This document shows, piece after piece, positions 7,599-64,000 of a stretch of DNA of 64,000 nt. Made by a program: the position numbers and the translations under genes. Position 1 is the first letter of the stretch. Each line of letters begins with the position of its first letter. The notes under the pieces are model-generated. The model did no database searches. It saw only the letters and a list, made by a program, of their open reading frames with translations, and had not been told where the DNA came from. The DNA is from Pseudomonas sp. 10S4 (lineage in GTDB: Bacteria > Pseudomonadota > Gammaproteobacteria > Pseudomonadales > Pseudomonadaceae), in contig NZ_CP133774.1 in the NCBI RefSeq assembly GCF_034344865.1, forward strand, positions 2,232,001 to 2,296,000, given 5' to 3'.

Positions 7599-8077
7599 GG
7601 GGCTCGCGGCGGCAATGTTGGGTCGTGAGGAGCCGGCGTTGTCGGCGCGGCGGCAGGAGCAACATGTTCAATTGGTGTCGGTGCGACAACGACAGGCGCA
7701 GGCTCGACGGCAGCCACGGTAGGCGCGTGTTCTGCAGACGGGACAACAACGGCAGGTTCTGCAACTACCGGAGCATGAATCGTCTGCTCCGCCACCGGCT
7801 CAACCGGTTGCACCGGCGTCGCCTCCTGCTGGGTCGGCGTGAAGATCTTCCGCGCCTCCTGTTCCAGGGACAGAATGTGCTCGTTGTGCAGTTGCCGACG
7901 AATCTCGTCGGCACCGATTTCACGTTCAACTTCCTGTTTGATCGCGTTGAAGCTGCGCTTCAGCCGCCCGATCCACAGGCCGGCGGTGCGCGCAGCACCC
8001 GGCAAACGCTCGGGGCCCAGTACCAGCAGGGCAACGAGGCCGACGAGCAGCAGTTCAGAGAAGCTGATACCAAACAT
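7595..8077 (-). CDS. tatB: Sec-independent protein translocase TatB
   Basis: 160-residue TatB. One N-terminal membrane helix ([21 protein letters not shown]) is followed by the conserved GPERLP hinge, a basic amphipathic helix and a long Pro/Val/Ala-rich disordered tail (residues about 95-160). TatB binds TatC and presents the signal peptide. The tail is low-complexity and variable, as in other pseudomonads. Order is tatA-tatB-tatC on the minus strand. Confidence 0.96.
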
Positions 8078-8087
8078 TAGTCAGTGC

Positions 8088-8366
8088 TCACACGTCTTTG
8101 CGGATCGGCTCTTCGACTTTCTGCGCCTGCACGTCAATGGTGTGCGGCTGGTTCAGTGGCGAGGTCGTCGTTGGTTGAGCAGGTGGCACCGGTTGGGCCG
8201 GGGTCACCGTCGGGTCAACTGGCTTCTCTTCATCGTTCATGGCTTTGCGAAAGCCCTTGATCGACTCGCCGACGTCAGTGCCGAGGTTTTTCAGTTTCTT
8301 GGTGCCGAACACCAGCACCACGACAACCAGGATGACGATCCAGTGTTTCCAGTCAAAAATGCCCAT
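8088..8366 (-). CDS. tatA: Sec-independent protein translocase TatA
   Basis: 92-residue pore-forming Tat subunit. ATG 8366 is chosen because GAGGAG lies about 8 bases upstream and the protein then begins [21 protein letters not shown], the standard TatA/E start; a longer in-frame extension upstream overlaps the hisE 3' end and is unlikely. The membrane helix, the [10 protein letters not shown] hinge and a Pro/Thr-rich tail are visible. It is the first of the three tat genes. Confidence 0.95.
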
Positions 8367-8391
8367 GTTGCTGCTCCTCTCTAATAATTGT

Positions 8392-8724
8392 TCAGGCGGA
8401 CGGGCGCGAGGCTTTCTCGGCGTGTCCGGACAGACCGAAGCGACGGTCCAGTTCATCGAGTACAGCCTGGGGATGCTGCCCCAATTGGGCGAGCATGACC
8501 ATACTGTGGAACCACAAATCGGCGGTTTCGTAGATCACATCGCTGCAGTCACCGCTGATGGCGGCGTCCTTGGCGGCAATGATGGTTTCGACCGACTCTT
8601 CGCCGACTTTTTCCAGAATCTTGTTCAAGCCCTTGTGGTACAGGCTGGCGACATACGAGCTGTCGGCGGCGGCGCCTTTGCGCTCTTCCAGCACCTCGGC
8701 CAGACGGGTCAAAGTGTCACTCAT
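8392..8724 (-). CDS. hisE: Phosphoribosyl-ATP pyrophosphatase HisE
   Basis: 110-residue all-alpha MazG-like NTP pyrophosphohydrolase that hydrolyses PRPP-ATP adduct (PR-ATP) to PR-AMP in histidine synthesis. The metal-binding pattern is seen in [14 protein letters not shown] and [12 protein letters not shown]. HisE and HisI are separate proteins here, unlike the fused HisIE of enterobacteria. The start overlaps the hisI end by eight bases. Confidence 0.96.
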
Positions 8725-32147: not shown

Positions 32148-34601
32148 TCAGAACAAATCGATCGGTGCCGCTTCGTCCGCTGGCAGCGGGCTACCCGGCG
32201 CAGCGCCGTTGCCCAGCTCGTTCACCGACGGTGGCGTGTCTTCGGCCTTGAACAGCTCGAAGTAGGCCCCAGGTGTGCTTGGGGTGGCTGCACGGCCGCT
32301 GACCGGGTCGACCCGCAGGCTGAGGATGCCTTCCGGTTCGGCTTGCGTGTGTGGCGGCTTGCCTTTGAGCGCAGCGCCCATGTAGTTCATCCAGATCGGC
32401 AGCGCGACGGTGCCACCGAACTCCTTGCGACCCAGGCTTTCAGGCTGGTCGAAACCGGTCCAGACCGTGGTCACGTAATCGGCGTTGTAGCCGGAGAACC
32501 AGGCGTCCTTGGATTCGTTGGTGGTACCGGTCTTGCCCGCGATGTCCGGACGACCCAGGGCCAGTGCGCGGCGGCCGGTACCGAGTTTGATCACGTCCTC
32601 CAGCATGCTGTTGAGGATGAACGTGGTGCGGCCATCGACAATGCGCTCGGCCAGGGCCGGGGTTTGCGGCAGTGTGCCAGGCGCGGCCGGTGCGGCAGGC
32701 GCTTCGCCCGGGGTCGGGTTGACCGTGAACGACTGGGCGGGCGGCGCAGCTACACCGCTGGTCGCTGCATTACCTTGAGGCACCGACGGCGGGTTGGCGA
32801 CGAACAACGTGTCGCCATTGCGGCTTTCGATCTTGTCGATGATGTACGGGGTGATCTTGTAGCCGCCGTTGGCGAAGGTGCTCCAGCCGGTCGCGATCTC
32901 CATTGGCGTCAGGGTCGCGGTGCCGAGGGCCAGGGACAGGTTGCGCGGCAGATCCTGCTTGTTGAAGCCGAACCGGCTGATGTAGTCGATGGTGCGATCA
33001 ACGCCCAGCGCCTGCACCAGTCGGATCGACACCAGGTTACGCGACTTGTACAGCCCTTCACGCAAGCGGATCGGGCCGAGGAAGGTGTTGGTGTCGTTCT
33101 TCGGACGCCAGACCTTGTCCAGGTACTCGTCGACAAACACGATCGGCGCATCGTTCACCAGCGTGGCGGCGGTGTAGCCGTTATCCAGCGCAGCGCTATA
33201 AACGAATGGCTTGAAGCTCGAACCCGGCTGACGCTTGGCTTGTAGGGCGCGGTTGTAGTTGCTCTGCTCAAAGGCGAAGCCGCCGACCAGCGAACGAATC
33301 GCGCCGTTCTGCGGATCAAGGGAGACCAGTGCGCCCTGGGCCTGCGGAATCTGGCTGAACTTCAGCGAGTTGTCCGCCTGGCGTTGTACGCGAATCAAGT
33401 CACCGACCTGAGCCACATCCGACGGCTGTTTCGGGTTGGCGCCCATGCTGTTGGTGTTCAGGAATGGCCGTGCCCACTTCATGCTGTCCCAGCCAACGTG
33501 CTCGTCGCCGGTGCGGGTCATCACTTGCAGACCGTTTTTGTCGATCTGGGTGACGATAGCCGGCTCAAGGCTGCTGATGGTGCGCTGCTTGGTCAGTTCG
33601 GTGGCCCAGGCTTCACGAGTCTTGCCCGGCAGGCGCGACTCAGGACCGCGGTAGCCGTGACGCTGGTCGTAGGTCATCAAGCCTTCGTGGACTGCGGTGT
33701 TGGCCATTTCCTGCAAGTTGCTCGGCACGGTAGTCGTGACGCGGAAACCTTCGGTATAGGCGTCGCTGCCATAACGGCCGACCATTTCGGCACGGGCCAT
33801 TTCAGCGATGTACGGCGCGTTCACTTCCGGAGTCGGCACGTGATAGCTGGCGTTCAGCGGTTCGTTGATCGCGGTGGTGTAGTCGGCTTCGGTGATTTTC
33901 CCGAGCTTGTACATGCGCCCCAGGATCCAGTCGCGACGCTCCTTGCTGCGGGCCGGGTTGGCCAGCGGGTTGAAGCGCGACGGGGCTTTTGGCAGGCCGG
34001 CGATCATCGCCATCTGCGCCAGGCTCACATCACGAATCGATTTGCCGTAGTAGACCTGCGCCGCCGCCTCGATGCCGTAGGCGCGGTTACCCAGATAAAT
34101 CTTGTTGACGTACAACTCAAGGATCTCGTCCTTGGTCAGTTGCCGTTCGATTTGAAGGGCTAGCAGGATTTCGGTGGTTTTGCGCGAGAAGCTGCGTTCG
34201 CTGCTCAGGAAGAAGTTCTTCGCCACCTGCATGGTGATGGTGCTGCCGCCGGACTGGATGTGTCCGCTTTTAACCAGTTGGGTCGCGGCACGCATCAGGC
34301 TGCTGGGGTCGACACCATAGTGGTTGGCGAAATTGTCGTCTTCAGCACTTAGTAACGCATTGATGAAATTGGGGGGAATGTCGGCGAAACGGATTGGAGT
34401 CCGGCGCATTTCGCCAAATTCTGCAATCAACTTGTTGTCGCTGCTGTATACCCGTAGAGGAATCTGCAACTGAATGCTTCTCAGCGCCTCCACGGATGGC
34501 AAACCCGGACTAAGGTAAAGATAGGCGCCACTGAGACCTAAAAGCAGTCCGCAGAAAACGGCGACGATGGACCAACCGAAAAATTTCAGCAGACGAATCA
34601 A
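32148..34601 (-). CDS. ponA: Penicillin-binding protein 1A (bifunctional)
   Basis: 817-residue class A PBP that polymerises and cross-links peptidoglycan. One N-terminal membrane helix (IVAVFCGLLLGLSGAYLYL) precedes the GT51 glycosyltransferase domain, whose catalytic glutamate is in SAEDDNFANHYGVD. An OB-like insert follows. The transpeptidase domain has the SxxK serine in PGSSFKPF, the SxN motif in KSRNLVS and KTGT in AGKTGTTNESKDAW. A Pro/Ala-rich linker lies around residues 610-650. It is divergent from pilM, as in P. aeruginosa (PA5045). Confidence 0.97.
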   Translation of the reverse strand: MIRLLKFFGWSIVAVFCGLLLGLSGAYLYLSPGLPSVEALRSIQLQIPLRVYSSDNKLIAEFGEMRRTPIRFADIPPNFINALLSAEDDNFANHYGVDPSSLMRAATQLVKSGHIQSGGSTITMQVAKNFFLSSERSFSRKTTEILLALQIERQLTKDEILELYVNKIYLGNRAYGIEAAAQVYYGKSIRDVSLAQMAMIAGLPKAPSRFNPLANPARSKERRDWILGRMYKLGKITEADYTTAINEPLNASYHVPTPEVNAPYIAEMARAEMVGRYGSDAYTEGFRVTTTVPSNLQEMANTAVHEGLMTYDQRHGYRGPESRLPGKTREAWATELTKQRTISSLEPAIVTQIDKNGLQVMTRTGDEHVGWDSMKWARPFLNTNSMGANPKQPSDVAQVGDLIRVQRQADNSLKFSQIPQAQGALVSLDPQNGAIRSLVGGFAFEQSNYNRALQAKRQPGSSFKPFVYSAALDNGYTAATLVNDAPIVFVDEYLDKVWRPKNDTNTFLGPIRLREGLYKSRNLVSIRLVQALGVDRTIDYISRFGFNKQDLPRNLSLALGTATLTPMEIATGWSTFANGGYKITPYIIDKIESRNGDTLFVANPPSVPQGNAATSGVAAPPAQSFTVNPTPGEAPAAPAAPGTLPQTPALAERIVDGRTTFILNSMLEDVIKLGTGRRALALGRPDIAGKTGTTNESKDAWFSGYNADYVTTVWTGFDQPESLGRKEFGGTVALPIWMNYMGAALKGKPPHTQAEPEGILSLRVDPVSGRAATPSTPGAYFELFKAEDTPPSVNELGNGAAPGSPLPADEAAPIDLF

Positions 34602-34789
34602 GGCTTTTGGACATCCAGGGCAAAGAATGAATTTGGCATCAGGGTCTCGGCTACACAGAGAACGACCCGCGCCGGCAGTAAAAGCGGAAAAAAACGCTGG
34701 GCATTATAAGCATTTTTCCGCAGGGAGCGTTATTTGCGCTTCTGTCAAGAAGGGGTGATTGAACGCAACACACATTACAGAGTCCGTAA

Positions 34790-49445: not shown

Positions 49446-49576
49446 TGGTTTCAGGGTGTTACCAATACCGGAGTTTCACCGCAATAAATTGACCCGATAG
49501 ACAAAAGGCTGACCTGCAACCGTGCCTTTTGCGTCGCGCTCTGAGAAAATGCCCGCACTTTTTTCCGGATGCCGAC

Positions 49577-50644
49577 ATGACTGCCCTGAAGAACGACCGT
49601 TTCCTTCGCGCCCTGCTCAAGCAACCTGTAGACGTCACGCCGGTATGGATGATGCGTCAGGCCGGTCGCTACCTGCCTGAATACCGCGCCAGCCGTGCCA
49701 AGGCCGGTGACTTCATGAGCCTGTGCATGAACCCGGAGTTCGCTTGCGAAGTCACGATGCAACCGCTCGACCGCTATCCACAACTGGACGCGGCGATCCT
49801 CTTCTCCGACATCCTGACCATCCCGGATGCCATGGGCCAAGGCCTGTACTTCGAGACCGGCGAAGGTCCGCGCTTCAAGAAAGTCGTCAGCACCCTGGCC
49901 GATATCGAAGCCCTGCCGATTCCTGACCCACAAAAAGACCTTGGCTACGTCATGGACGCGGTCAGCACCATCCGCCGCGAACTGAACGGCCGCGTGCCGC
50001 TGATCGGCTTCTCCGGTAGCCCATGGACCCTGGCCACCTACATGGTCGAAGGCGGCTCGTCGAAAGACTTCCGCAAGACCAAAGCCATGCTCTACGACAA
50101 CCCGCAAGCCATGCACCTGCTGCTGGATAAACTTGCGCAGTCGGTCACCAGCTACCTCAACGGCCAGATCATGGCTGGCGCGCAAGCGGTGCAGATCTTC
50201 GACACTTGGGGCGGCAACCTCTCGGCGGCGGCGTACCAGGAATTCTCCCTGGCCTACATGCGTAAAATCGTCAGCGGCCTGATCCGCGAACACGAAGGCC
50301 GCAAAGTGCCGGTCATCCTGTTCACCAAAAACGGCGGCCTGTGGCTGGAAAGCATCGCCGACGCTGGCGCGGACGCGTTGGGCCTGGACTGGACCTGCGA
50401 CATCGGCGAAGCCCGCCAGCGCGTCGGCAACAAAGTCGCCCTGCAAGGCAACATGGACCCGACCGTGCTGTACGCCAAGCCAGAAGCCATCCGTACCGAA
50501 GTCGGCCGCATCCTCGCCAGCTACGGCAAGGGCAGCGGCCACGTGTTCAACCTCGGTCATGGCATCACCCCGGAAGTTGATCCGGAACATGCAGGCGCGT
50601 TCATGCGCGCGGTGCATGAGTTGTCGGCGCAGTATCACGAGTGA
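49577..50644 (+). CDS. hemE: Uroporphyrinogen decarboxylase HemE
   Basis: 355 residues. ATG 49577 ([14 protein letters not shown]) is the family start. The signature [16 protein letters not shown], the block [17 protein letters not shown] and the C-terminal [14 protein letters not shown] are present. It decarboxylates the four acetate side chains of uroporphyrinogen III in heme synthesis. It marks the end of the conserved core block. Confidence 0.97.
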
Positions 50645-50660
50645 TCGTCGCCCGATAACG

Positions 50661-50689
50661 AAAACGCCCGGCATTTGCCGGGCGTTTTT
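50661..50689 (+). terminator. Terminator after hemE
   Basis: Hairpin AACGCCCGGC-ATTT-GCCGGGCGTT with T5 tail; an A4 run on the other side lets it also serve the convergent nuclease gene. Confidence 0.92.
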
Positions 50690-50703
50690 GTTTGTGTTGG
50701 TTT

Positions 50704-51348
50704 TTAGTGACCGAGGAGTTGTTCGGCGTAGCGGGCGATGATGTGGTCGAAAGGTTTTTGATCCGAGATGTCGGTTGAGCGAATCGCGGTGACGAGGCGG
50801 TTGAGGTCTTCTTCACTGGCCTGTGTGATGAATTCCTCATCGAACAGCAGCCGGATTGTGTTCTGACGACGATTGTTCAGGTAGGCAATATCTAGCGCCA
50901 ACACTTCAATCATCTTCGATGCGGGCAGGTCTTCAGAGTCTGTTGGTTGGATTTCGCCGGTTCTCAGATACCGGAAGCGCAGTTCACATCGTTCATCCAT
51001 TGGAGAGATATGCAGCGCTTCGTCAAACCAGTTGCCCTTGCGATGGCCGCAGTGCAACGGGTTGCCGGGTTTTGTCTCGCGCAGGCAAGAGGCATGGAGA
51101 TTCTGATACTCCAATGCCAGTTTTTCGAAATGCTCTTGAGGTTTGAAATGTTCGATATGGCTGTTGGACGCCTCTATTTCTCTACCGCAGTAGCAGCAGA
51201 AGAATCCTTGTTCAGTTAACAAGCTGTTGAGAAGGTCCCGTTTTTGCGGGTTTTGCAGCGTTGGATAAGTAGGGCTCCACTCATCGTTTGCCGAGTTTTT
51301 CCATTCTGTAAATGAAGCGGGTTCAGTTCCTTTGAGCACTCGCTTCAT
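50704..51348 (-). CDS. HNH nuclease, PtuB-like (TIGR02646 type), of a Septu-like system
   Basis: 214 residues. The zinc/HNH region is seen in FFCCYCGREIEASNSHIEHFKPQE followed by LHCGHRKGNW: a CxxC pair, the HxxHF block and a downstream CGH. This pattern is that of the putative HNH nucleases paired with AAA ATPases in Septu and in Ec78-type retron systems (PtuB). It is encoded 25 bases downstream of the ATPase on the same strand, with GGAG before the start. No reverse transcriptase is nearby, so the retron form is not supported. Nuclease activity is inferred from family. The frame is intact. Confidence 0.8.
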   Translation of the reverse strand: MKRVLKGTEPASFTEWKNSANDEWSPTYPTLQNPQKRDLLNSLLTEQGFFCCYCGREIEASNSHIEHFKPQEHFEKLALEYQNLHASCLRETKPGNPLHCGHRKGNWFDEALHISPMDERCELRFRYLRTGEIQPTDSEDLPASKMIEVLALDIAYLNNRRQNTIRLLFDEEFITQASEEDLNRLVTAIRSTDISDQKPFDHIIARYAEQLLGH

Positions 51349-51373
51349 TTGCCGAGAATCTCCTTGCGCCTGA

Positions 51374-52620
51374 TCAACGCTTCGGCTCCTGCGAACTCTG
51401 GGAGGTCGGGGGCTTTTTCTTCAGCGCCTCAAGTTGGACTTTTGCTTTTTTGAGGTCGTTGTCTTCCAGGGTGGAGAACAGCTCAGAGAGCAGCCTTTCT
51501 ATTTCGGGCTCGCGTTGAGTAACGCCCATGACCTCCTCCAACACGCTACTGGAATCCAAGCCATAGGTGACCCGTGGGTGGGAGGCGTCGCCATTGTTTA
51601 GGACGATCACTTCTTCGGGTTTCAGACTGCCGATGATTTGAGGGGAGTGGCTGGCGGCGATGAACTGGACTTTGGGGAAGGCTTCTTTCAACGCCGGAAC
51701 AATGTTGCGTTGCCAGGCTGGATGGAGGTGGATGTCCAGTTCGTCGATGATGACCACGCCTGAGGTGTTTTTCAGGACGTCCTTGCCCATGTGCGGGTTG
51801 AGGATGCACATGCGTCGGGCGATGTCGGCGAAGAGGGCGACCATACCGCGCTGGCCGTCGCTAAGTTGACCGAAGGGGAGAGTTTGCCCGTCGCCCATAT
51901 CTATGAGTAGAGATTGCATCCGTAGGTCGTAGCGCAAGTCATTTGCTTCAGGCAATGCAAACTTAATTGCTTGATTGACCCAGGCTAGTTCGTCGTCAAA
52001 CTCCGAAGACGTCAAACCTTCATCCAGTAGGGTTTGCATCCGCTCCAGTGTCTTGGCGATCAGCCAGCTCTCGAAGTCCTTTAAATCCGCGACAGCATCG
52101 AACCAGTTGTTGTAGCTGCTGAAACGCGAAATTTTTTGTTGCGCCGCAAACTCTGCAGAAACATTCGCATTTTTCCAGCGTCGATCTGCGCGATAGAACG
52201 CGAGTATTGGTAGATCGGGGTAGATTTTTGCTTCCGGTAGAGACTGTGTAAGGAATTGATCGACCGCATTTTTCAGGTTCTGATTCGTCCCTGCGGCCCA
52301 GTCTTCTACAAGGCTGATTGTTGTCCAGTCGACTGCGCCGAGAACATCGCCCTTTGCGGCCAGCGTTATTGGAAACTTTTTTCATATCGTGTTCTGCCTC
52401 GAAACTTATCGACTATAAATCGGACATCATCATTTATCGCGAATGACTGGCCGGATTGCATGGCGCTGGCAAACTCAACAAACGACGCAGCCACCGCCTG
52501 CAACAACGAAGTCTTCCCACTCCCATTAACCCCCACCACCAGATTGAAACCCGGCTGAAAGTCAAAAGTGGCATCTTCGTAGCAACGAAAATTCTGAATG
52601 TGGAGACGGTCCAGGCGCAT
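51374..52620 (-). CDS. AAA/RecF-like ATPase, PtuA-like, of a Septu-like system (frameshifted)
   Basis: About 415 residues once one A is restored in the A-run at 52375-52380 (minus-strand AAAAAA after RTRYE). From there an open frame without its own start joins the N- and C-terminal parts (WTTISLVEDW, YPDLPILAFYRADRRW). Walker A is GVNGSGKTSLLQ near residue 32, the ABC-type signature LSDGQRGMVAL, Walker B GVVIIDELDIHLHP and the His switch AASHSPQIIG. This is the overcoming-lysogenisation/RecF-like ATPase type that partners HNH PtuB. If the frameshift is real the system is dead; if it is sequencing error the pair is complete. Confidence 0.8.
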
Positions 52621-52698
52621 TCTGGCTTCCCTTTACCAAGACTGACGAATGCCGTCAGTGTACCTTGGCTCGCGATTACCGCTAGGGCGCAGTTTTGG

Positions 52699-53977
52699 CT
52701 AAACCTGTGCGGTGCCCGCCAGCGGCGGCAACTTCGCCAGCTTCAACGCCACCAGCAACGCAATCACCAACAACCCGCCAATAAACAACCCAATCCCGTT
52801 CCACCCGCCCAAATGCCAGAACACCCCACCTGCCGTCCCGGCAATGCTCGACCCGGCGTAATAACTGAACAGATACAGCGAAGACGCCTGCCCCTTGGCC
52901 TTGATCGCCCGGCGCCCAATCCAGCTACTGGCCACCGAATGCGCGCCGAAGAAGCCGAAGGTGAAGATCAGCATGCCAATTATCACCACCGGCAGCGGTG
53001 TGAACATCGTCAGTGTGAGGCCGGCAAGCATCAGCACAATCGTCGCCCAAAGCACTTTGCGCCGGCCCAGTTTGTCGGCCAACGAGCCGATTTTCGCCGA
53101 GCTATAAATCCCCGACAGGTACACCACCGACAACAGTCCAACGAACGCTTGGTCCATGTTGTACGGCGCAGCCAGCAGGCGATAGCCGATGTAGTTGAAC
53201 AGCGTGACGAACGCGCCCATCAGCACAAAGGCTTCGACAAACAGCAGCGGCAGGCCGGCGTCGCGAAAGTGCATGGTGAAGCCGTCGAGCAGGCTGCGCG
53301 GGTGCATCGAGCGGGAACGGAAGTTGCGCGATTCGGGGAGGATCTTCCAGAACACCGTCGCTGCAATTAGCGCCAGACCGCCGATCACCAGCATCGCCGT
53401 GTGCCAGCTGACGAAATCGATCAAAACCCCGGTGATCAAGCGCCCGCTCATCCCGCCAATCGCGTTGCCACCGATGTACAACCCCATCGCCAAGCCGATG
53501 TGCTGCGGATGAATTTCTTCGCTCAGGTAAGTCATGGCCACCGCCGCCAGGCCGCTCAACGACAGCCCGATCAACGCGCGCATGATCAACACACCTTCCC
53601 AGCTCGGCATCATCGCGCTGGCCATGGGTGCACAGAGCCGCGGCGAACAACGCCGTCACCATCACCGGCTTACGCCCGACGCGGTCGGAAATCGGGCCAG
53701 TGATCAGCAGACCAATCGCGAGCATGCCAGTGGCCACCGACAGAATCAGGCTGCTCTGCGCTGCGTTGATCGAATATTCGTGGGACAGCAGCGGCATCAT
53801 CGGCTGCACGCAATACAGCAAGGCAAACGTCGCGAAGCCGCCGGAGAACAGCGCCAGCACCGTGCGCATGAACATCGGCGTGCCTTTTTCGATGTAGATC
53901 TCGTTCAGCTCGGCGACGACATCGTCCAGCGCGGTGGGCTGTATTTCATGGGCGAGTGGGGCGACAGCAGTTTTCAC
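52699..53977 (-). CDS. MFS transporter (frameshifted)
   Basis: About 426 residues, 12 membrane segments. GTG 53977 with GAGG six bases upstream is preferred to ATG 54010. The MFS loop motif is GPISDRVGRKPVM after TM2, repeated less exactly as GSLADKLGRRKVL. The frame breaks at about 53628-53634 with two bases missing between AALC and PMASAMMPSWEG. It resembles YnfM/PA5030-type exporters of unknown substrate. It is divergent from a LysR regulator, the usual arrangement for substrate-induced exporters. Confidence 0.85.
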
Positions 53978-54096
53978 TTCGGACCTCGGAGGGCGCAGCC
54001 GGTCAGGCAATGGAAAAAAGCATATAGCTGCCTAACGATTCAATCCAATATATTATTCGACCTGTTTAAGACGTTTCACGACCTAATGGGGTTTTC

Positions 54097-54999
54097 ATGG
54101 AATTGCGTCACCTGCGCTACTTCATCGCCGTCGCCGAAGAACTGCATTTCGGCCGCGCCGCCCAAGTGCTGGGCATCTCTCAGCCGCCCTTGAGCCAGCA
54201 GATTCAGGCACTGGAAGCCGAGGTTGGCGCGCGGCTTTTCGAGCGTACCAATCGTCGGGTCGAACTCAGCGAAGCCGGTCGGTTGTTTCTGGAAGAGGCG
54301 CGGTTGGCGTTGGCCCAGGTCGACAAAGCGGCAGATGTCGCCCGGCGGGCGCAACTCGGTGAGTTGGGTGAACTGAAAATCGGCTTCACCTCGTCGGCAC
54401 CGTTTAACTCGACCATCCCCCAGGCGATCTTCTCGTTTCGCCAACGCTTCCCGGCGGTACACCTGAACCTGCGGGAAATGAGCAGCACCCAAGTGGCCGA
54501 CGCACTGGTGGATGAGTCGATTGAAGTCGGGATCATGCGCCCGCTCGGTTTGCCGGATTCCCTCAGCGTCGTCGAATTGATGCGCGAGCCACTGGTGGCA
54601 GTGCTCAGCTCCAAGCATCCGCTGGTGAACGGCAGCGAAGAAGGCTTGTTCCTGTCGGCCCTGGCCCTCGAACCGTTCGTATTTTTCCCACGCAGTTACG
54701 GCAGTGGTCTGTACGCCCAGTTACTGACCTTGGCCCGAGATGCCGGCTTCAGCCCGCACTTCGCCCAAGAGGCCGGCGAGGCGATGACCATCATCGGCCT
54801 GGTAGCGGCGGGGTTGGGCGTATCGGTGTTGCCGGCGTCGTATCAGCGGATGCGCATTGATGGCGTGGTCTATCGGCCGCTGCTGGACCCGGAAGCGGTG
54901 TCGGCAGTGTGGCTGGTGCAGCGCAAGGATCAGAAATCGCCGATGGCCAAGGCGTTTGTGGAGTTGTTGACGCGCAAAGTTGAACCGTTAAAGGCGTGA
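54097..54999 (+). CDS. LysR-family transcriptional regulator
   Basis: 300 residues. The N-terminal winged helix-turn-helix (MELRHLRYFIAVAEELHFGRAA to about residue 60) is followed by a coiled linker and a periplasmic-binding-like effector domain (about 90-295). The 86-base gap to the MFS gene contains an AT-rich stretch (CAATATATTATTCG) that could be its operator. By position it probably controls the divergent exporter. Confidence 0.92.
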   Translation: MELRHLRYFIAVAEELHFGRAAQVLGISQPPLSQQIQALEAEVGARLFERTNRRVELSEAGRLFLEEARLALAQVDKAADVARRAQLGELGELKIGFTSSAPFNSTIPQAIFSFRQRFPAVHLNLREMSSTQVADALVDESIEVGIMRPLGLPDSLSVVELMREPLVAVLSSKHPLVNGSEEGLFLSALALEPFVFFPRSYGSGLYAQLLTLARDAGFSPHFAQEAGEAMTIIGLVAAGLGVSVLPASYQRMRIDGVVYRPLLDPEAVSAVWLVQRKDQKSPMAKAFVELLTRKVEPLKA

Positions 55000-55012
55000 C
55001 GGCTTCGCCGCC

Positions 55013-55037
55013 ATTCGCGAGCAAGCCCGCTCCCACA
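55013..55037. repeat. Single REP, class A
   Basis: One unpaired arm TTCGCGAGCAAGCCCGCTCC followed by CACA, 13 bases after the LysR stop. Confidence 0.8.
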
Positions 55038-55070
55038 GTGGGTAGCGAAATCCTGGCAGGAGCAAAACCC

Positions 55071-55358
55071 ATGACCAAACAATTCACTCGTTGGGACTCT
55101 GCCGAGTACCTCAAGACCGAAGAGGACATGGCTAATTATCTGGATGCTTGTATGGAGGAGGCTGGCGATGATCCGGCGTTCATCGCCAAGGCACTCGGGA
55201 CTATCGCTCGCGCTCGCGGCATGACTCAGGTGGCACGAGATGCAGGGCTTTCTCGGGAAAGTCTTTACCGGGCATTGTCAGGCGAAGGAAATCCAGAATT
55301 CGGTACCATCCTGAAAGTCGTCAAGGCGTTGGGACTGAAGTTACACGCCAGCACCTAA
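55071..55358 (+). CDS. Addiction-module antidote-like HTH protein (HigA/TIGR02684 type)
   Basis: 95 residues. GGCAGGAG lies 8 bases before ATG 55071. The helix-turn-helix ARGMTQVARDAGLSRESLYRAL is followed by GNPEFGTILKVVKALGLKL, the pattern of antitoxins paired with RelE/HigB-type toxins. No toxin gene is present on either side: upstream is a REP and LysR, downstream a terminator. It may be an orphan antitoxin kept as a regulator. Confidence 0.8.
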   Translation: MTKQFTRWDSAEYLKTEEDMANYLDACMEEAGDDPAFIAKALGTIARARGMTQVARDAGLSRESLYRALSGEGNPEFGTILKVVKALGLKLHAST

Positions 55359-56009: not shown

Positions 56010-56393
56010 TCAGTGGTGGGAAGGGGTTGGGGTTTCACGCGAACCTTCGGGCAACTCCACTAGGTCCAGCGCCCGATTAACCAATAACTCGGCCAACGTG
56101 GCCAGTTGCTGAATGGCCAACGCCACATTGCGGTGGGAGCCTTCCAGATCGCAGGCCAGATCGGTGCTCATGACATTCAGGGAGGCGAGGGTTTCGCAGG
56201 CGTGACAGAGCAGGGATTCCTTGTCGGCGTCCGGGAGGATGGCGAAGACGTGGCTGATCGGGTCAGGGCGCTTTGGATTGCGCAGGCGTGCGCTGACGAG
56301 GGGTTCGGTGATGTCGGAGAGTTTGGGTGTATCGACGTTGTCGTCGGATGATGGATTTTGCGAGTCCGAGAGGGTAGGGGGTATTTTTTTCAT
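56010..56393 (-). CDS. DUF6124-like family protein
   Basis: 127 residues with AAGGGA before the start. The central block FAILPDADKESLLCHACETLASLNVMSTDLACDLEG and LAIQQLATLAELLVNRALD is that of the DUF6124 proteins of pseudomonads. Function unknown; a paired DUF3077-like gene follows. Confidence 0.75.
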   Translation of the reverse strand: MKKIPPTLSDSQNPSSDDNVDTPKLSDITEPLVSARLRNPKRPDPISHVFAILPDADKESLLCHACETLASLNVMSTDLACDLEGSHRNVALAIQQLATLAELLVNRALDLVELPEGSRETPTPSHH

Positions 56394-56795
56394 ATTGGTA
56401 TTCCCTTCAAGAGTTTAAGAAACCATTAACCCTATGCAGTCCGCCAAGGTGAATTGGCGGCGTGCAAAGGTGAATGGTGCGGTAGATTTATTACCAGAAA
56501 ATTCTATTTAATTAATCAAATAAATGAACATATGTGCAATTAAATGATTCATTTCTTTTCTAAATGATTTTGTAGGAAGTTGCTGTAAGAGATGACTGTG
56601 GGAAGTTTCATTAAGTTTTGTGGTATATGTCGGTAATCAAACATTCTGAATTTCTTGAGCGAAATATTATTTAATGAATGTTTTGCGTGTTTGTGATATT
56701 GATTTTGTATAAGTCCTGACTCTGTAGGATGCTGGGTTTGCAGCGAGAAACCTGCGTAGGGTTTATTTCGAGTGTGCAGCGTGTTGAAAGCGTAA
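56394..56795. other. AT-rich intergenic region at the edge of the low-GC islet
   Basis: 402 bases of markedly AT-rich sequence between divergent genes. It must contain promoters for the DUF6124-like and XRE genes, but I cannot single one out. No open frame of interest and no REP. The base composition change begins here. Confidence 0.55.
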
Positions 56796-57341
56796 GTGAA
56801 TGGTAGCTATTTAATGCATAAGAAAGTAAAGACAGAACGTTTAAAAAACAATATTAAATATCTGATAAAAAGTCGTGGAGAGACGCAGCTGTCCTTGTGC
56901 AATTCCAGTGGTCTGACACGGAGTACGATATATAACATTCTGGAAGGGAGGGTGGTGAATGTTCAGCAATCTACAATTCGTAAGATTTCTGATTTTTTCG
57001 GAGTGTCTTACAAAGAAATAGAGACCGTCGATTTTGAAGAAAAGGAAGTAATTGAGAGCAGTGTTTCCATACTTGGAAATATGAATCCGGCGGCGGTTCC
57101 TGTCATTAAAGAAATTTTATTGATTAAGAGTCTGGAAAAAAGAATCGGCGAATTGGCTACCACTCACCCGCTTACTTACTATTTCGGTTCAGCCTGCAAC
57201 GTAATAGGTGTGCTATTGGAAAATGATATCTGGGGTGTCTATGAGTCAGGGGATTTGCTGATAGTGAAGAAAGGTTTGTCGAGCAGTGCTACGGAGAAGT
57301 TAGTGTATGAAAGGGAAAACAAAGGCGTTGCATATAATTAG
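56796..57341 (+). CDS. XRE-type helix-turn-helix regulator
   Basis: 181 residues from GTG 56796 (175 from ATG 56814, which is equally possible; neither has a strong ribosome site). The Cro/CI-type HTH spans residues about 15-70 (LIKSRGETQLSLCNSSGLTRSTIYNILEGR). The C-terminal part, with TYYFGSACNVIGVLLEND, has no domain I recognise. AT-rich codon use contrasts with the core genome. Its 3' end overlaps the next gene by 35 bases, so it probably regulates it. Confidence 0.8.
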   Translation: MNGSYLMHKKVKTERLKNNIKYLIKSRGETQLSLCNSSGLTRSTIYNILEGRVVNVQQSTIRKISDFFGVSYKEIETVDFEEKEVIESSVSILGNMNPAAVPVIKEILLIKSLEKRIGELATTHPLTYYFGSACNVIGVLLENDIWGVYESGDLLIVKKGLSSSATEKLVYERENKGVAYN

Positions 57342-58276
57342 TGAGGCGTATTTTGATTCTGACGTTTTCTGTATTGTAGGGGATGTGCTGGAGCAACGAT
57401 TCAATGGATGATGCTGCTGAAAATAGTCGGTACAAGCTTCTCGGGTTTGAGAATAACAAAAATCTCGCCGTGATCATGGTTATCTCTACAGGAAAAGTTG
57501 TCCGAGTAAAGCTAGGCGAATTGTTGAAAAGTGATATTTTAGACAATTTAAGTAAAACGGAAATTAAGGATATTTACAGGAAGTTCTATTCTGGCGGGGC
57601 GGCATTAACTGCATACGAAGTCAATGATCGTCATGAGCGATCTTGGTTGACTTATGTTGTGCTCAATCTTTTTCTTTTCGCGCTTTATATTTTTACAAAC
57701 GTAGCGGCCACAAAACTTGTTTATTTAGAGCGATTTGATGTTGTCGTCACGCCCGGAGTTTTTCTATATCCACTAACGTTTTTAATAGTCGATCTACTCA
57801 ATGAGTCATATGGGTTTAAACTCGCGAGGAAGGCTATATTGTTTGCTTTTTGCAAGCAATGCACTCATTATCATCTTGCTGAGTTTTACTAGCTATTTGC
57901 CCGGTTTGGCTGGTTGGAAACTTGATGCGCCGTTTAGTGAAGTCATGACTCATGTGTCTTCAGTTTTGATCGCATCCTCCATTTCATTTCTTTTTCTGAG
58001 TATTTGAATTCTTGTTTACTGTGCAAGATAAAAGAACTCACGAATTCCAGGTTTCTGTTTCTTAGAGTATTTTTAAGCACGTTTTTTGCTGTGATAATCG
58101 ATAGTTTTATTTTTTGTTCTATTGCCTTTTATGGGGAGATGCAGAGTGTTGAAATACTAAGCATAATTTATATTCAGATAACTATAAAGATGTGCTTCGC
58201 TGTTTTTAATATTTTGCCAGCCTATGGGGCAAGGTACTTGTTTAAAAAGTATATAGCTGTGGCTCCGGTGGCGTAA
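57307..58276 (+). CDS. YhhQ-type queuosine precursor transporter with N-terminal extension (frameshifted)
   Basis: About 323 residues after correction. ATG 57307 has GGAG 10 bases upstream. Breaks: near 57405 (one extra G; RFN then DDAAENSRYKLL), near 57846 in a T-run (one extra T; LFAF then ASNALIIIL), and near 57998 (four bases missing, perhaps a collapsed GAGT repeat; FLFLS then EYLNS). The roughly 110-residue soluble N-terminal part precedes six membrane segments of the VUT/YhhQ family (NLFLFALYIFTNVAATK, PLTFLIVDLLNESYG, YGARYLFKK). YhhQ imports preQ0/preQ1. The sum of the three corrections gives a whole number of codons. Confidence 0.75.
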
Positions 58277-58280
58277 AAGA

Positions 58281-58303
58281 AAGGGGAGCCAATAGCTCCC
58301 CTT
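58281..58303. terminator. Hairpin between the convergent transporter and queC genes
   Basis: AGGGGAGC-CAATA-GCTCCCCT; a perfect 8-bp stem with no long T-run, probably a shared terminator. Confidence 0.6.
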
Positions 58304-58312
58304 GCAGTGTGT

Positions 58313-59014
58313 TCATCTGCTTAAATTTAGCTTTTCTTTTAGATGGTTCATGGTTTCTGCTTTGTTCCTCATGAATTCAGTTAAACCTTTTGCCCGAAGA
58401 CTGCACGCATCGCAACGGGTGCACCCACTACCCTTTATGCCGTTGTAACAAGACAGCGTATCGTAGCGAATCAAGTCTAACTGGTTGTGGTAATCGGCCA
58501 GGGCCCAGGTTTCCGCCTTGTTCAACCACATGAGTGGGGTTTCAATACGTAGTTTATAATCCATTCCCAATTCGATAGAGTTATTCAAAGCAGTGACAAA
58601 ATCGTCGCGGCAATCAGGGTAGCCCGAGCACTCTGTTTCACAAATACCTGTGATTAAAGCCTCGGCACCAACTTGATACGCATAAATAGAAGCCAGCGTT
58701 AAAAACAGAATATTCCGGCCGGGCACGAACGTGTTTGGCACGCTATCCCTTGAACTGGCAGCGGTTGGCACCGGGATATTGTCACGAGTCAGACTGCTGA
58801 TTGCTAACTCATTTAGTAATGACGTGTCGAGAACCTTATGTACTTTTATGCCAAGCCTTGCTGAGAGTTGTTGCGCCACTTCAATTTCCGCGCGGTGCCG
58901 CTGCCCATAATCAAACGTGATGCAATGTACTTCATCGTAGTTTGGCAAAGCATGGATTAAGCAGGTTGTTGAGTCTTGGCCGCCACTAAAAACGATAACT
59001 GCTTTTTTATTCAT
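58313..59014 (-). CDS. queC: 7-cyano-7-deazaguanine synthase QueC
   Basis: 233 residues from ATG 59014 ([15 protein letters not shown]); ATG 59026 is an alternative but its ribosome site would be too close. It makes preQ0 from carboxydeazaguanine with ATP and ammonia. The PP-loop is [11 protein letters not shown] and the zinc site is [20 protein letters not shown] with four cysteines. The sequence is much closer to the E. coli type ([33 protein letters not shown]) than I would expect of the chromosomal Pseudomonas gene, and codon use is AT-rich, so acquisition by transfer is likely. Confidence 0.95.
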
Positions 59015-59034
59015 GCTTTTGCTCATCCTTGGAG

Positions 59035-59058
59035 TGTCCCGACAGGTAGCTAGGGACA
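59035..59058 (-). promoter_or_regulatory. Hairpin before queC with preQ1-I-like loop (weak candidate)
   Basis: On the minus strand TGTCCC-TAGCTACCTGTC-GGGACA stands 8 bases before AAGGATG. CTAGCTAC, formed by the last stem base and the first loop bases, is identical to the core of the preQ1-I aptamer loop, but the A-rich tail expected for the pseudoknot is missing. The gene it precedes is a typical preQ1 target. Confidence 0.3.
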
Positions 59059-59233
59059 TTGACCCTACCGGGAAAGCCAAAGGTCTCGCTGTGGGACGTT
59101 TCCGAAATTACATGCACCGCTTTCCTATGTTTCATTTCTTTGCCAGAAGGAGGCATGGCAAGTCCAGCTTCGGCCGGCTGCTCCCGATCATTCGCTGTGC
59201 TTCTTTCGTTGATTGACGCACCCGTTTGAAAAG

Positions 59234-59283: not shown

Positions 59284-59372
59284 GCCGTTGCTACCGTGCG
59301 CGCCAATTTCGCGTGCACAGACCTCGAACGGTCTGGACATCACGCTTTTCTCCTCTGCTTAAGGATGAGCGT

Positions 59373-61445
59373 ATGTTCGGCTCGGCCAATACAGCGCATT
59401 TCGCGTTGCACATCTCCGCTGTTCGTAACGATTTCAAGGTGCTGGCTTTTGAAGGGTCTGAGGCCATCAGCACCCTCTACGCCATCCATGTTGATCTGGT
59501 CAGCGAGCACCCAGATTTCGATCTGGAGAGCCTGCTCAGCCAACCGGCGTTTCTGCAATTCGGCCTGAACGGCGAAGGACTTCACGGCCGTATCGAACAC
59601 GTCTGGGTGGGTGAAGCCGGTAAGCGCCTGACCCGTTATCACCTGACCCTGGTGCCGGCGCTGCACTATTTGCAGTTAAGTCACGACCAACGGATTTTCC
59701 AGCACCTGACGGTGCCGCAGATCATCACGCAAGTGCTCAAAGGGCACGGCATTCAGGGTGACGAATTCGCTTTCCATGTCAGCACCAGCCCTGTGCGCGA
59801 ATACTGTACGCAGTACGGTGAAAGCGACTTCGAGTTCATCCAGCGCCTGTGCGCCGAGGACGGCATCGCCTGGCACCACCAGCACTCGCAGGACGGTCAC
59901 CGGTTGGTGTTCACCGGCGATCAAACGTTCTTCCCCAAGCTGGGCGAAACCCCTTATCAGCAAGGCTCCGGCATGGTCGCGGAGCACCCGGTCGTCAGCC
60001 AGTTCGCCATGGGTTTCAGCACCCGCACCAGCACGATCACGCGCCGGGACTATGACTTCCAGCGCCCGAGCCTGCTGCTGGAAAGCCGCTTCACCGCCGA
60101 GTTCAGTCCTGAGCTTGAAGACTATCGCTACCCCGTACTGATCGAGAACGAAAAGCACGGCAAACAACTCGCTCAACAGGCCTTGGAGCGGCACCGTGCC
60201 GATTACCAGTTGGCCGAGGGCCAGAGCGATCAGCCGACTCTGCGTAGTGGTCACTTCTTCGACCTGATCGAGCACCCGCGTAAAACCTGCAACGATTTGT
60301 GGTTGTTGCTCAGCGTGACGCACCACGGGAAACAACCGCAGTCACTGGAAGAGGCCATCACCAGCGACGTCAAACCGCAAGACGGCTTCACTCAAGGTTA
60401 TCGCAACCACTTCAGCGCCATTCCATGGGACGTGCATTACCGCCCACCGTTGCGCCCGCGAAAAACACAACTGGTCAGCCAGACCGCCCGCGTTACCGGG
60501 CCTGCCGGTGAAGAGATTTATTGCGATGAATTTGGTCGTGTGAAGGTCGAACTGCCGTGGGACAGAGCCGAACTCAACAGTGAGAAAAGCAGTTGCTGGC
60601 TCCGGGTTTCCTCCAGTTGGGCGGGGGAAGGTTTTGGCGCGGTGACCATCCCGCGCGTCGGCATGGAAGTGTTGGTGATCTACCTCGAAGGCGATCCCGA
60701 TCAACCCTTGATCACCGGTTGTGTCGCCAACAAAGTCACGTCCGTCCCGCACTCCTTACCAGAGAACAAAACCAAAACTGTCCTGCGTAGCCACAGTTCT
60801 CCGCACACCGGTGGCTACAACGAACTGTCGCTGGAAGATCGCGCCGGGCAGGAAAAAATCTACCTGCGCGCCCAGCGCGACATCGAACAACTGATCCTCA
60901 ACGACAGCGACACTAAAATCGGTAACGACCGCCGCGAACAGATCACTCGGGACAGCCACAGCCTGATCAGCCATGACCGTTTTGAACAGGTCGATAACCA
61001 CAGCGCCAGCCTGATCAAGGGCGACGAGTTGCACACCACCCAAGGTCTTCGCAACACGGTAATCGGCGGGGATGAGCTGATCACCATCAGCGGCAATAGC
61101 AGCACGGCGGCGGCTGGCACGCTGGTGATTCAGGCTGGCGCGCACGCCCGCGTTACCGCGAGCCAGGTGGTAATCGATGCGGGTTCGAGCCTGACGCTCA
61201 CTGCTGGCGGCCATCACATCGTCATCAACGCCGGCGGGATTTTCAGCAGCGTGGCCATTGTCGAGGGCGGTTCTCCGGTGGCGGGGATGGCGGCGCAGGT
61301 GGCGTTGTCGGCTGAACAGATCACGTCAGTTGCTCTTGAAGCGCCCTTGCTACTTCAGACGCAACGTTTGGCCTTGATGGCCAAACAACCGATTTGCGCG
61401 GTATGCGAAGCCGCGAAACAGCAGAGTGAACACGCCAATGGTTAA
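59373..61445 (+). CDS. vgrG: Type VI secretion spike protein VgrG
   Basis: 690 residues from ATG 59373, which has AAGGA seven bases upstream. The N-terminal gp27-like part (to about residue 370) includes TPVREYCTQYGESDFEFIQRLC (shown here by its core YGESDFEFIQRL), then the gp5-like OB domain with GEEIYCDEFGRVKVELPWDR, and a DUF2345 needle region rich in beta repeats (VVIDAGSSLTLTAGGHHIV). A short C-terminal tail has CAVCEAAKQQ. No fused effector domain is seen. The next two genes are its cargo loader and cargo. Confidence 0.95.
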   Translation: MFGSANTAHFALHISAVRNDFKVLAFEGSEAISTLYAIHVDLVSEHPDFDLESLLSQPAFLQFGLNGEGLHGRIEHVWVGEAGKRLTRYHLTLVPALHYLQLSHDQRIFQHLTVPQIITQVLKGHGIQGDEFAFHVSTSPVREYCTQYGESDFEFIQRLCAEDGIAWHHQHSQDGHRLVFTGDQTFFPKLGETPYQQGSGMVAEHPVVSQFAMGFSTRTSTITRRDYDFQRPSLLLESRFTAEFSPELEDYRYPVLIENEKHGKQLAQQALERHRADYQLAEGQSDQPTLRSGHFFDLIEHPRKTCNDLWLLLSVTHHGKQPQSLEEAITSDVKPQDGFTQGYRNHFSAIPWDVHYRPPLRPRKTQLVSQTARVTGPAGEEIYCDEFGRVKVELPWDRAELNSEKSSCWLRVSSSWAGEGFGAVTIPRVGMEVLVIYLEGDPDQPLITGCVANKVTSVPHSLPENKTKTVLRSHSSPHTGGYNELSLEDRAGQEKIYLRAQRDIEQLILNDSDTKIGNDRREQITRDSHSLISHDRFEQVDNHSASLIKGDELHTTQGLRNTVIGGDELITISGNSSTAAAGTLVIQAGAHARVTASQVVIDAGSSLTLTAGGHHIVINAGGIFSSVAIVEGGSPVAGMAAQVALSAEQITSVALEAPLLLQTQRLALMAKQPICAVCEAAKQQSEHANG

Positions 61446-62313
61446 TTTGCCGCCACTGCCGGACGATTTGCCTTGGGCGATGTCGGCTTATTTGCTGCTT
61501 GATGGTGTAAGCGCGTCGAACCTGGCGCAACGTCTGCACCGCTGGGATAACCCGACGTATTGCCTGTACCAAGGCACTCGCTGGCATGAGTTGTCAGACA
61601 TATCGCCCTGCTTGATCCCGCTCAACGGTGAGCACGATCCACTGTTGGCGTACTTCCAGGAAAACGCCGCACTTGAATGGGGCTATTTGCTGTTCAGTCC
61701 AGCGGACGCGACAACGCTTTGTTCGCATTGGCGTCGCCTGCTGACCGTCGAACACCCCAGCGGCATTGAGGTCATGCCGCGCATTGCCGATCCAGCGGTC
61801 ATTCACCCCTTGCTTGTCCTTGCACGGCAAGCGCAAAGCGCCCGCTGGTTTGGCCCCGTCGAACGGGTGTGTTTGCCCGATAGCCTCCAGGCGATCTGGC
61901 ACCAACACGCACGCCCTGAGCGTGCGGCGCCAGACACCCTCGATAGCTATCGACTGACGGACGAGGAACTCACGGCGCTGGAAGAGGTGGCGTTTCGGCG
62001 TTTAGTCTTTGACTTGAGTGAGCACCTGCACGCGTACTTCCCCGAGTTCATGGCGTCGTATCCAGCGCAAAAGCGCCTGCTTCATATCCAGCAAGTGGCC
62101 CGAGAGGCTTATCAACGGGGCTTCACGTCGGAGCAGGAAATCACCCTCTACGCCAATGTTTTCGCCTATTTGGCCGGGCAGCCGGTGAGCGACCATGCGG
62201 ATATTGTCGAGCTGCTCACGGTACCCACAGCGCAATCCCCTTTGATGCGTGTGCAACGTGCTGCCGAGTTGGCTCGCAGTCATACCGCTGACCCGCAAGG
62301 AGGCCGACTGTGA
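61438..62313 (+). CDS. DUF4123 T6SS effector adaptor (Tap/TEC)
   Basis: 291 residues from ATG 61438, overlapping the vgrG stop by 8 bases; GTG 61426 is an in-frame alternative. DUF4123 features are the N-terminal YLLLDGVSA, the ENAALEWGYLLFSP block and the C-terminal helical part. DUF4123 proteins bind a specific effector and load it onto VgrG. The stop overlaps the effector start (GTGA). Confidence 0.9.
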   Translation: MVNLPPLPDDLPWAMSAYLLLDGVSASNLAQRLHRWDNPTYCLYQGTRWHELSDISPCLIPLNGEHDPLLAYFQENAALEWGYLLFSPADATTLCSHWRRLLTVEHPSGIEVMPRIADPAVIHPLLVLARQAQSARWFGPVERVCLPDSLQAIWHQHARPERAAPDTLDSYRLTDEELTALEEVAFRRLVFDLSEHLHAYFPEFMASYPAQKRLLHIQQVAREAYQRGFTSEQEITLYANVFAYLAGQPVSDHADIVELLTVPTAQSPLMRVQRAAELARSHTADPQGGRL

Positions 62314-64000
62314 CTGCCCGACTAGCGGCCTCACTCGATGCCAACGCCGCCGCCATGGCCACGCGTGCCAACGACGTCCGCTCACCGGTGGGGCAATGCT
62401 CTTTAATGAACCCCAAGGTGCAGTTGCTGCCGCTGCGATACGGGCTGGTCGAACACCTCGATCCCTCGTCCGAACTCGCCATGCCGCTCACACTGAGCAG
62501 TCAGCCCCTGGGCATCCGATTGTTGCGCGATGGCTACCTTTACATCATCGACAACGACACGGCCTATCTGCACGAATACCGCATTGAAAAAGGGCAGATC
62601 ACAAAGCTGTTATGGAGCAGCCAAGAGGTTGCCGGCGACACGCGCACCGCTTCGGTCGGTGATCCTCACTTGGTCTTTGCCCGGCAGAACACGTTGTACG
62701 CCAGCTATTCAGAAATTCAGTGGACGGCTTACAAGTGTTCGCAAGTGCTCAAGAACAGCGCCGAGCGCGAACGCTTGATGCAATGCATCGAGCTGGCCAG
62801 TGCGTGCCCGGTCAAGGGCGGCACTGATTTGCTGAGCAAACAGCAGGCCGAAAAATGGCTGGCGGAAGTGGCAGAAAATGTTACCCAGTCAGTCTCGATA
62901 AAGGCCCTGCCCGACGGCGCCAACCGGCAAGAAAGTGAGCACTATGCCTGGGAGGACACGCCGCTGTTTCAGGAGGCGGCGATTGAAACACTCACCAGCC
63001 AGGTGCTCGGCCCTTATCAGGATGACTACCTGTTTTTGGTGTTGCGCGATGACTTTGGCGTCATGCGCGATCTGGCCAGCGCGCAACTGAAAGTGGCTGA
63101 CTGGATTGAGCAATGGAGTGCCGACGATGCGGTTCAGCGCCAGTACCTGACGGGCGCTTACATCCAGTCCTTGTACGATGTGAATGCCGCGCGTCTGGAG
63201 GCTCTGGACGCGACAGATCCACAAGTCAAAGCGTTGAAAGACGACACCAGCGCCGAGCAGCAGAACGCGATTTATGACTACTTGCGGGCCAAACGTGACG
63301 ACAGGGGCGCAGGACTCTATGGCGACGAGGCGTTTTGGCGAGAGGCCGCCAAAACCAATCCTCATGCTCGAGCCCACCTCACTCTGCGAGACGCGCTGGG
63401 AGAGGTGCTTTGGCAAAAGCACCAAAGCACCATCACCACGCTCAACCTGCAAACCTGGGAGGCGCTATACGGCAAAGCCATCGGCCAACGCGGCATCGAT
63501 GACCTGGTCAACCGGGCAGAGATGGAAGCCTTCGTCAGCCAACAGCAACTCTTGCTGAGCCATTGGCACCAACGACTTAAGGCCATCCGCGAAGACCGGT
63601 TGAGCATGATCACCGGCGGCTACTTTCACCGGGCCGCCTGGTATTACGACTTCCAGCACGATGCGCTCATCAAGCATCGCCTGGAAACCGAATTCGTCTG
63701 CGTGGCCGCCCTGTGCTGGAATCGCGCCGCAACGGAAAAACTGGCGGCTTATCTGGAGCAAAACCTGCTTACTGTCGTGCCGGGGCTGGAAACCCTGGCG
63801 CTGAAGGACCAGTTGGAGGTGAGCAAAAAACTGACGGACTTGAGCAGCTTCTCGATCAAAGTGGGCACGGCCCAGGAGAGTCTTGCCAGCGTCAATGTGC
63901 TCGCCAGCCAGTTCAACAGTTTGATGAGTGAGCGGTTGCCCAACTATGCGGATTTGAATACGAGGTTTAAGGGGCTGCAAAGTTTGCTTGATAGCGCTTA
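62310..64000 (+). CDS. T6SS effector with VasX-type N-terminal region (partial, runs off the window)
   Basis: At least 563 residues, open to the window end. It starts with GTG 62310 overlapping the adaptor stop by four bases. The N-terminal region (residues about 25-110) holds CSLMNPKVQLLPLRYGLVEH and LGIRLLRDGYLYIIDNDTAYLHEY, the pattern of the toxin VasX N-terminal domain (BTH_I2691 family), which couples membrane-disrupting effectors to VgrG. A long helical middle part follows (about 150-560). The C-terminal toxic part, expected to hold membrane helices, and any immunity gene lie beyond the edge. Confidence 0.85.
   Translation, partial: MTARLAASLDANAAAMATRANDVRSPVGQCSLMNPKVQLLPLRYGLVEHLDPSSELAMPLTLSSQPLGIRLLRDGYLYIIDNDTAYLHEYRIEKGQITKLLWSSQEVAGDTRTASVGDPHLVFARQNTLYASYSEIQWTAYKCSQVLKNSAERERLMQCIELASACPVKGGTDLLSKQQAEKWLAEVAENVTQSVSIKALPDGANRQESEHYAWEDTPLFQEAAIETLTSQVLGPYQDDYLFLVLRDDFGVMRDLASAQLKVADWIEQWSADDAVQRQYLTGAYIQSLYDVNAARLEALDATDPQVKALKDDTSAEQQNAIYDYLRAKRDDRGAGLYGDEAFWREAAKTNPHARAHLTLRDALGEVLWQKHQSTITTLNLQTWEALYGKAIGQRGIDDLVNRAEMEAFVSQQQLLLSHWHQRLKAIREDRLSMITGGYFHRAAWYYDFQHDALIKHRLETEFVCVAALCWNRAATEKLAAYLEQNLLTVVPGLETLALKDQLEVSKKLTDLSSFSIKVGTAQESLASVNVLASQFNSLMSERLPNYADLNTRFKGLQSLLDSA

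Follow-up and report, generated by a model that had tools for sequence, protein, structure and literature searches.

A Septu PtuA-PtuB pair at a regular site in Pseudomonas chromosomes, with a PtuA middle segment likely exchanged in blocks

Introduction

The closest described relatives of the locus reported here are pairs of the ATPase PtuA and the HNH nuclease PtuB. In PMC13096335, Septu EcB88 is described as a two-gene ptuA-ptuB system, like the pair studied here, in which the Walker and HNH residues are required. The PtuAB of retron-Eco7 degrade tRNA-Tyr according to PMC11555353, and the same two sources give tRNA-Tyr as the target of Septu EcB88 too and report nicked DNA for another E. coli Septu (PMC11555353, PMC13096335). 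The retron Ec78/Eco7 PtuAB (PMC11555353; PDB 9nnb, 9kjx) form a homologous effector pair. Here we analyze a ptuA-ptuB pair from Pseudomonas sp. 10S4, located in a stretch of 64,000 nucleotides (contig NZ_CP133774.1, positions 2,232,001 to 2,296,000), hereafter the window.

By its sequence, the cassette is a Septu pair, a known kind, with a predicted anti-phage role. It sits in a fixed slot of the chromosome, and the central segment of its PtuA varies in blocks; we consider it rather probable that this segment has been exchanged by recombination and would serve to recognize phage. The solved E. coli Septu complex (PDB 8ee4, 8ee7, 8eea, 8sux) is a distant counterpart: its PtuA is only ~28% identical in structural alignment, its PtuB is distant from that of the window lineage (E 2.5e-7), and the fixed site and block-exchanged middle are features seen in the window lineage.

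Results

The gene pair and its parts

The pair comprises an intact ptuB and a ptuA that the given sequence spreads over three reading frames:

50704..51348, minus strand: ptuB, HNH nuclease of Septu, 214 amino acids (aa), intact (PADLOC, TIGR02646)
52366..52620, minus strand: ptuA piece 1, start and Walker A (GVNGSGKT), ~residues 1-83, an 84-aa open reading frame (ORF) (PADLOC; tblastn frame -2)
51374..52381, minus strand: ptuA piece 2, a stop-to-stop stretch with the middle, LSDGQR signature, Walker B DELD and His switch, ~residues 81-405
51348..51452, minus strand: ptuA piece 3, third frame, encoding the conserved C-terminal tail up to the start of ptuB (tblastn frame -3)
51866..52485, minus strand: exchangeable central PtuA segment, ~residues 46-250 (about 46-255), from identity and change-point data

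Piece 2 runs from its ATG over 51374-52039, with the frame (tblastn frame -1) open back to 52381; piece 3 was found at E 7.7e-9 and 1.4e-8 with two intact homologues as queries. The first-pass annotation, made from the letters alone, had named the pair Septu from family knowledge, and PADLOC profile searches bear this out for both proteins. PtuB matches PtuB1 (PDLC00346) over residues 1-212 (E 1.7e-99), and the two PtuA pieces, scored apart, match PtuA1 (PDLC00277) at E 1e-34 (piece 1, profile positions 1-83) and E 2.1e-114 (piece 2, ORF part 51377-52039, profile 193-403), values at which the family matches are not due to chance. An intact relative, L085, matches PtuA1 over 1-423 of 423 (E 9.4e-202). 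PtuB also falls in NCBIfam TIGR02646 (E 1.1e-38), and Pfam identifies HNH, AAA_21 and AAA_23 domains in the pair. The 84-aa Walker A ORF, the piece downstream of it that bears the signature, Walker B and His-switch motifs, the 214-aa HNH protein and their position between hemE and an MFS gene, all described earlier, were likewise recovered.

Relatives were drawn from 30 loci, 18 in other genomes and 12 from named Pseudomonas records, of which 26 are distinct. PtuB residues C51, C54, H64, H67, N83, C88 and C100 are invariant in the 26 relatives and are also kept in an Ec78-type PtuB, and the two genes overlap by 4 bases in 26/26. Compared without alignment, the spacing of 16 between H67 and N83 equals that of H75 and N91 in EcB88 (PMC13096335). 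The G+C content of ptuAB is 51.9%, versus 58.9% for the window, and a sigma-70 promoter scan of 50600-52900 found none (mean of shuffles 1.3).

A structural model of PtuA, made from the intact relative L085 and not from the window's own PtuA, was built from 134 sequences and reached a mean predicted local distance difference test score (pLDDT) of 84.2. Its best structural match is 8eea, and the modeled fold is that of the solved E. coli Septu complex. An earlier model from 25 near relatives was discarded (mean pLDDT 54.3).

The first-pass annotation had also pointed to the retron Ec78 form, which was not borne out. Against the NCBIfam Ec78 cut-offs, PtuB scores 108.8 of 150 bits and the PtuA pieces, scored apart, 167.2 and 36.1 of 500 bits, and retron Ec78/Eco7 PtuA has 550 aa versus about 423 in the window lineage. 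Because hemE and the MFS gene directly flank the pair, no reverse transcriptase gene adjoins it. A gathering scan of the window with Rfam, whose coverage of the retron's msr-msd RNA was not checked, listed only asponA.

The PtuA middle varies as whole blocks, probably through exchange

Relatives keep PtuA residues 1-45, which hold the P-loop, and ~256-423, with signature, Walker B, His switch and tail, but not the middle. For the window protein, residues 1-45 are up to 100% identical to those of the 26 site relatives, whereas the middle reaches 60% at best. With P0036, an intact 425-aa protein (16 members, metagenomes), the middle of the window protein shares 92% identity, and piece 2 shares 94% over 97% of its length. 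The same profile appears between relatives: in 60-base steps, L033 and L086 are 81-95% identical to ~codon 45 and 33-56% up to ~codon 245; the step that follows stands at 80%, and beyond ~codon 265 identity is 90-100%. The neighboring genes of this pair stay high in nucleotide identity (MFS 83-98%, PtuB 93-100%).

Uncorrected synonymous differences per site (pS) in five pairs were 0.77-0.84 in the middle and 0.04-0.33 outside it. L138 and L086 have a common middle (0.05), and L039 and L042 show the reverse pattern, with 0.22 in the middle and 0.71 in PtuB. The high synonymous change, together with the shared and reversed cases, therefore points to block replacement rather than fast drift.

Distances and trees agree with this picture. 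Among the 26 relatives, the middle is nearly uncorrelated with PtuB (r 0.18) and weakly correlated with MFS (r 0.31). Correlations within the group formed by the C part, PtuB and MFS are much higher (r 0.74-0.78). With 25 sequences, the middle rejects the C, PtuB, MFS and LysR trees by log-likelihood differences (delta lnL) of 759-1300. A change-point scan of 300 pairs returned 8 in which a divergent block lies between ends that are alike, and in 7 of these the block is bounded by codons 37-45 and 252-264. L096, whose N-terminus lies in another frame, was left out of the tree tests, the change-point tests and alignment A1.

We merged 127 database proteins (134 less 7 outside 405-436 aa) with the 25 of alignment A1 into 146 unique PtuA. 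Single-linkage clustering at 80% placed residues 1-45 in one cluster, the C part in one and the middle in 76, a count that is no population estimate, the database being clustered at 90% and the proteins chosen by similarity. The comparisons support block exchange of the PtuA middle among strains well, with recombination as its likely route. A diversity-generating retroelement was rejected as the cause, the changes being whole blocks with high synonymous change and not targeted single changes; no reverse transcriptase family was found among the part of the window ORFs scanned with Pfam. Our literature search, which left most subscription papers outside its coverage, found no account of PtuA hypervariability or variable-region recombination; on hypervariable, recombining sensor domains of antiphage systems in general, it returned work on diversity-generating retroelements.

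Retron-type PtuA as a control

The correlation between middle and C part is 0.80 in 116 retron Ec78-type PtuA (120 less 4 shorter than 520 aa), versus 0.32 in the 127 Septu PtuA. At a C-part identity of 90-95%, the mean identity of the middle is 91.7% in the retron type and 51.0% in Septu. The retron-type set was gathered by similarity to one query PtuA; genomic context was inspected for that query alone, and there a reverse transcriptase adjoins. On these sequences, the middle of retron Ec78-type PtuA is not decoupled from the rest of the protein, in contrast to the window lineage.

The hemE-MFS interval is the regular site of the pair

The features flanking the pair are:

49529..50644, plus strand: hemE, left neighbor (296/298 Pseudomonas genomes match at E<=1e-100), named as in the first-pass annotation
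50657..50692, plus strand: strong hairpin with a T-run between the convergent hemE and ptuB (terminator scan, 16 pairs)
52699..54010, minus strand: MFS transporter gene, right neighbor, itself in two frames (Pfam MFS_1 on 52702-53625)

The hemE end lies 59 bases from ptuB, and the MFS gene (ORFs 52699-53625 and 53102-54010) 78 bases from ptuA. The first-pass annotation, judging from P. aeruginosa, had regarded this as an unexpected place for a defence locus, a view that the comparison does not bear out. A search of 398 Pseudomonas genomes for genes similar to ptuB (E<=1e-40) found them in 19, this one counted, and all 18 others carry the pair at this site. The same MFS gene directly precedes ptuA in 30/30 loci (26/26 distinct); 80-157 bases separate ptuA from the end of the MFS match, and a LysR gene lies beyond. 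In the window, an HI1420-type addiction-module antidote (54996-55358) lies beside the LysR gene.

The proposed comparison of the hemE-MFS gap across genomes thus shows the pair recurring there, and a genome of the same species, G216, provides the empty site: its alignment to the window ends at 50693 and restarts at 52724, with 151 other bases between. On this alignment, the hairpin marks the left limit of the insertion. Among 51 hemE stretches, picked by hemE similarity or by the presence of ptuB, 13 carry ptuAB; of the remaining 38, 24 are empty sites, where hemE is followed at 62-206 bases by the MFS match, one has that match at 585, and in 13 no MFS match was found within the stretch. These sequence comparisons show that this Septu lineage regularly resides between hemE and the MFS gene. 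No integrase was found among the immediate neighbors of the pair, and a tRNA as integration site was rejected, the window containing no tRNA gene.

The hemE side is more variable. In many loci hemE lies within 60-81 bases, in others 0.7-12 kb intervene, and for a few of the 12 loci from named records it falls outside the 6-kb flank. Examples of the extra content (Pfam, four ORFs) are an LPMO_10/GbpA gene with type II secretion genes and an amidohydrolase gene. L092-L094 hold 11-12 kb extra in the interval, which in L092 encodes an LPMO_10/GbpA protein alongside type II secretion genes. The interval is therefore a variable spot beyond Septu.

Reading-frame breaks in ptuA

The break in ptuA had been explained by a single indel in an A-run, which, once corrected, would give a 415-residue ATPase. 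Part of this holds: the third frame is open across the gap, and it is correct for the middle of PtuA. A single indel does not suffice, however, since tblastn with two intact homologues places residues 1-83, residues 81-403/405 and a tail (389-423/391-425) in three frames separated by two frame changes. The 3' end of the proposed frame (..PPTSQSSQEPKR) is unlike the tails of all 25 aligned relatives, only its last residues deviating from them, and the conserved tail (PDLPEFAGAEALIRRKEILGK) is encoded at the same place in another frame, which ends at the ptuB start codon. PtuA has 416-424 aa in the 25 aligned relatives, and its frame is uninterrupted in 25 of 26 distinct relatives but not in the window genome.

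That the break is a sequence error, as first proposed, is most likely according to split-ORF counts and length differences. G216 is 99.1-99.6% identical to the window in three aligned blocks; it lacks ptuAB, hence no direct ptuA comparison is possible there. We took 40 ORFs of at least 130 aa mechanically from G216, covering about window positions 1-55000. In the window, 12/40 are split over more than one frame, compared with 0/39 in G049 and 0/37 in G005. The split ORFs include, by order and size, the MFS neighbor and a 1483-aa ORF before gltD. Window and G216 differ in length at 39 places; in 13 both further relatives side with G216 and neither with the window. None clearly favors the window (two match it in one relative only, one is ambiguous). 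Weighing against this explanation, 26 of the 39 favor neither side or fall where conservation is poor.

A true pseudogene in this strain would account for the two frame changes, and one of the 26 distinct relatives, L096 (about 7253-8514), likewise has its PtuA N-terminus in a different frame from the rest. Splitting of the MFS neighbor, the 1483-aa ORF and other window ORFs, with none split among the 39 and 37 of the relatives, makes this very improbable. Because of these counts, the two frame changes are most likely assembly errors, and gene annotations of this genome will likely hold many false pseudogenes.

Other features of the window

The asponA antisense RNA lies at 34329-34623 (121.2 bits, Rfam). 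The region 56250-59080 is low in G+C (0.35-0.41 over 56250-57999) and holds a helix-turn-helix protein, a short Vut_1 (vitamin-uptake-type transporter) match and a QueC gene, which matches the PADLOC QueC model too. At 59313-63998, genes for a VgrG-like protein, a DUF4123 protein and a protein carrying a VasX N-terminal domain together look like a type VI secretion effector unit.

Discussion

By analogy with known Septu systems, PtuA and PtuB would form a complex in which a phage cue alters the state of the ATPase and frees the PtuB HNH nuclease, which would then cut nucleic acid and stop phage growth; the studied types cut host tRNA-Tyr or DNA. In retron systems, the retron is taken to be the sensor. 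We propose that stand-alone Septu probably senses phage through the PtuA middle: no other part is exchanged as much, the middle varies almost independently of the nuclease, and it shows no such exchange in systems whose sensor is taken to be a retron. Strains would renew the middle by exchange anchored in two conserved stretches, the P-loop (~codon 40) and the signature (~codon 255), with no change of the engine (N- and C-lobes), of PtuB or of the site. More tentatively, and with somewhat less than even confidence, the sensor of stand-alone Septu may be renewed cassette-like at one resident locus, retron PtuA being exempt as the retron took over sensing. Type I restriction HsdS offers a parallel in its target-domain exchange, a constant engine being combined with an exchangeable recognition part, although it is an unrelated protein and the exchanged PtuA block sits between P-loop and ABC signature.

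Several observations, in addition to the sampling of the two protein sets given above, weigh against this proposal. Conflict exists among the trees of the other parts as well, less marked (delta lnL 27.5-338) but mostly significant (C versus MFS tree: delta lnL 27.5, p-SH 0.30, p-AU 0.011), so there is some mixing across the whole locus. The change point of L037/L038 does not fit, and the C part of L034 is also strongly diverged from close relatives (pS 0.75-0.78). A second Pseudomonas Septu lineage, with HNH partners assigned by position, varies mainly over a shorter stretch, ~residues 80-160: L021/L028 resemble the pattern above (PtuB 88%, PtuA stretches of 25-55%), L026/L027 have PtuB at 99% and PtuA at 55-70% over ~residues 80-160, and pairs such as L023/L029 show little of the effect. 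The PtuA middle is not known to contact a phage product, and its role might instead be in assembly, in selecting the target or in evading phage inhibitors.

The first two of these roles would mean that the exchanged middle sets the PtuAB target or PtuA-PtuB assembly rather than sensing. The studied types do differ in target (tRNA-Tyr versus nicked DNA; PMC11555353 and PMC13096335), but the near absence of correlation between middle and PtuB nuclease, and the lack of decoupling in retron-type PtuA, whose PtuB partner belongs to the same family, make this unlikely. Exchange that evades phage-encoded Septu inhibitors binding the middle would look identical, as a block-diverse arm on a constant engine; we rate it lower still, as retron-type PtuA should meet inhibitors too, yet is not decoupled. 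We also know of no inhibitor of this lineage, though no search was made. That the middle is a weakly constrained arm under fast drift only, as SMC/Rad50-like ATPase arms are less conserved than heads, is hardly credible and already contradicted by the synonymous differences, since weak protein constraint would give neither ~0.8 per site in the middle versus 0.04-0.33 outside nor the 0.05 of the common L138/L086 middle, and retron-type middles behave otherwise.

The cassette itself is thus of a known kind, in a regular place and with sequence errors; what is new, within the literature searched, is the block exchange of the PtuA middle and the contrast with the retron type. If the middle is the sensor, nature offers dozens of alleles on a constant nuclease engine, and chimeras of simple design would suffice to map the trigger. 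Comparison with the retron type would then illustrate how a single effector pair can take its signal from a protein sensor in one case and from a retron in the other. Large allelic differences are missed when Septu is scored as present or absent.
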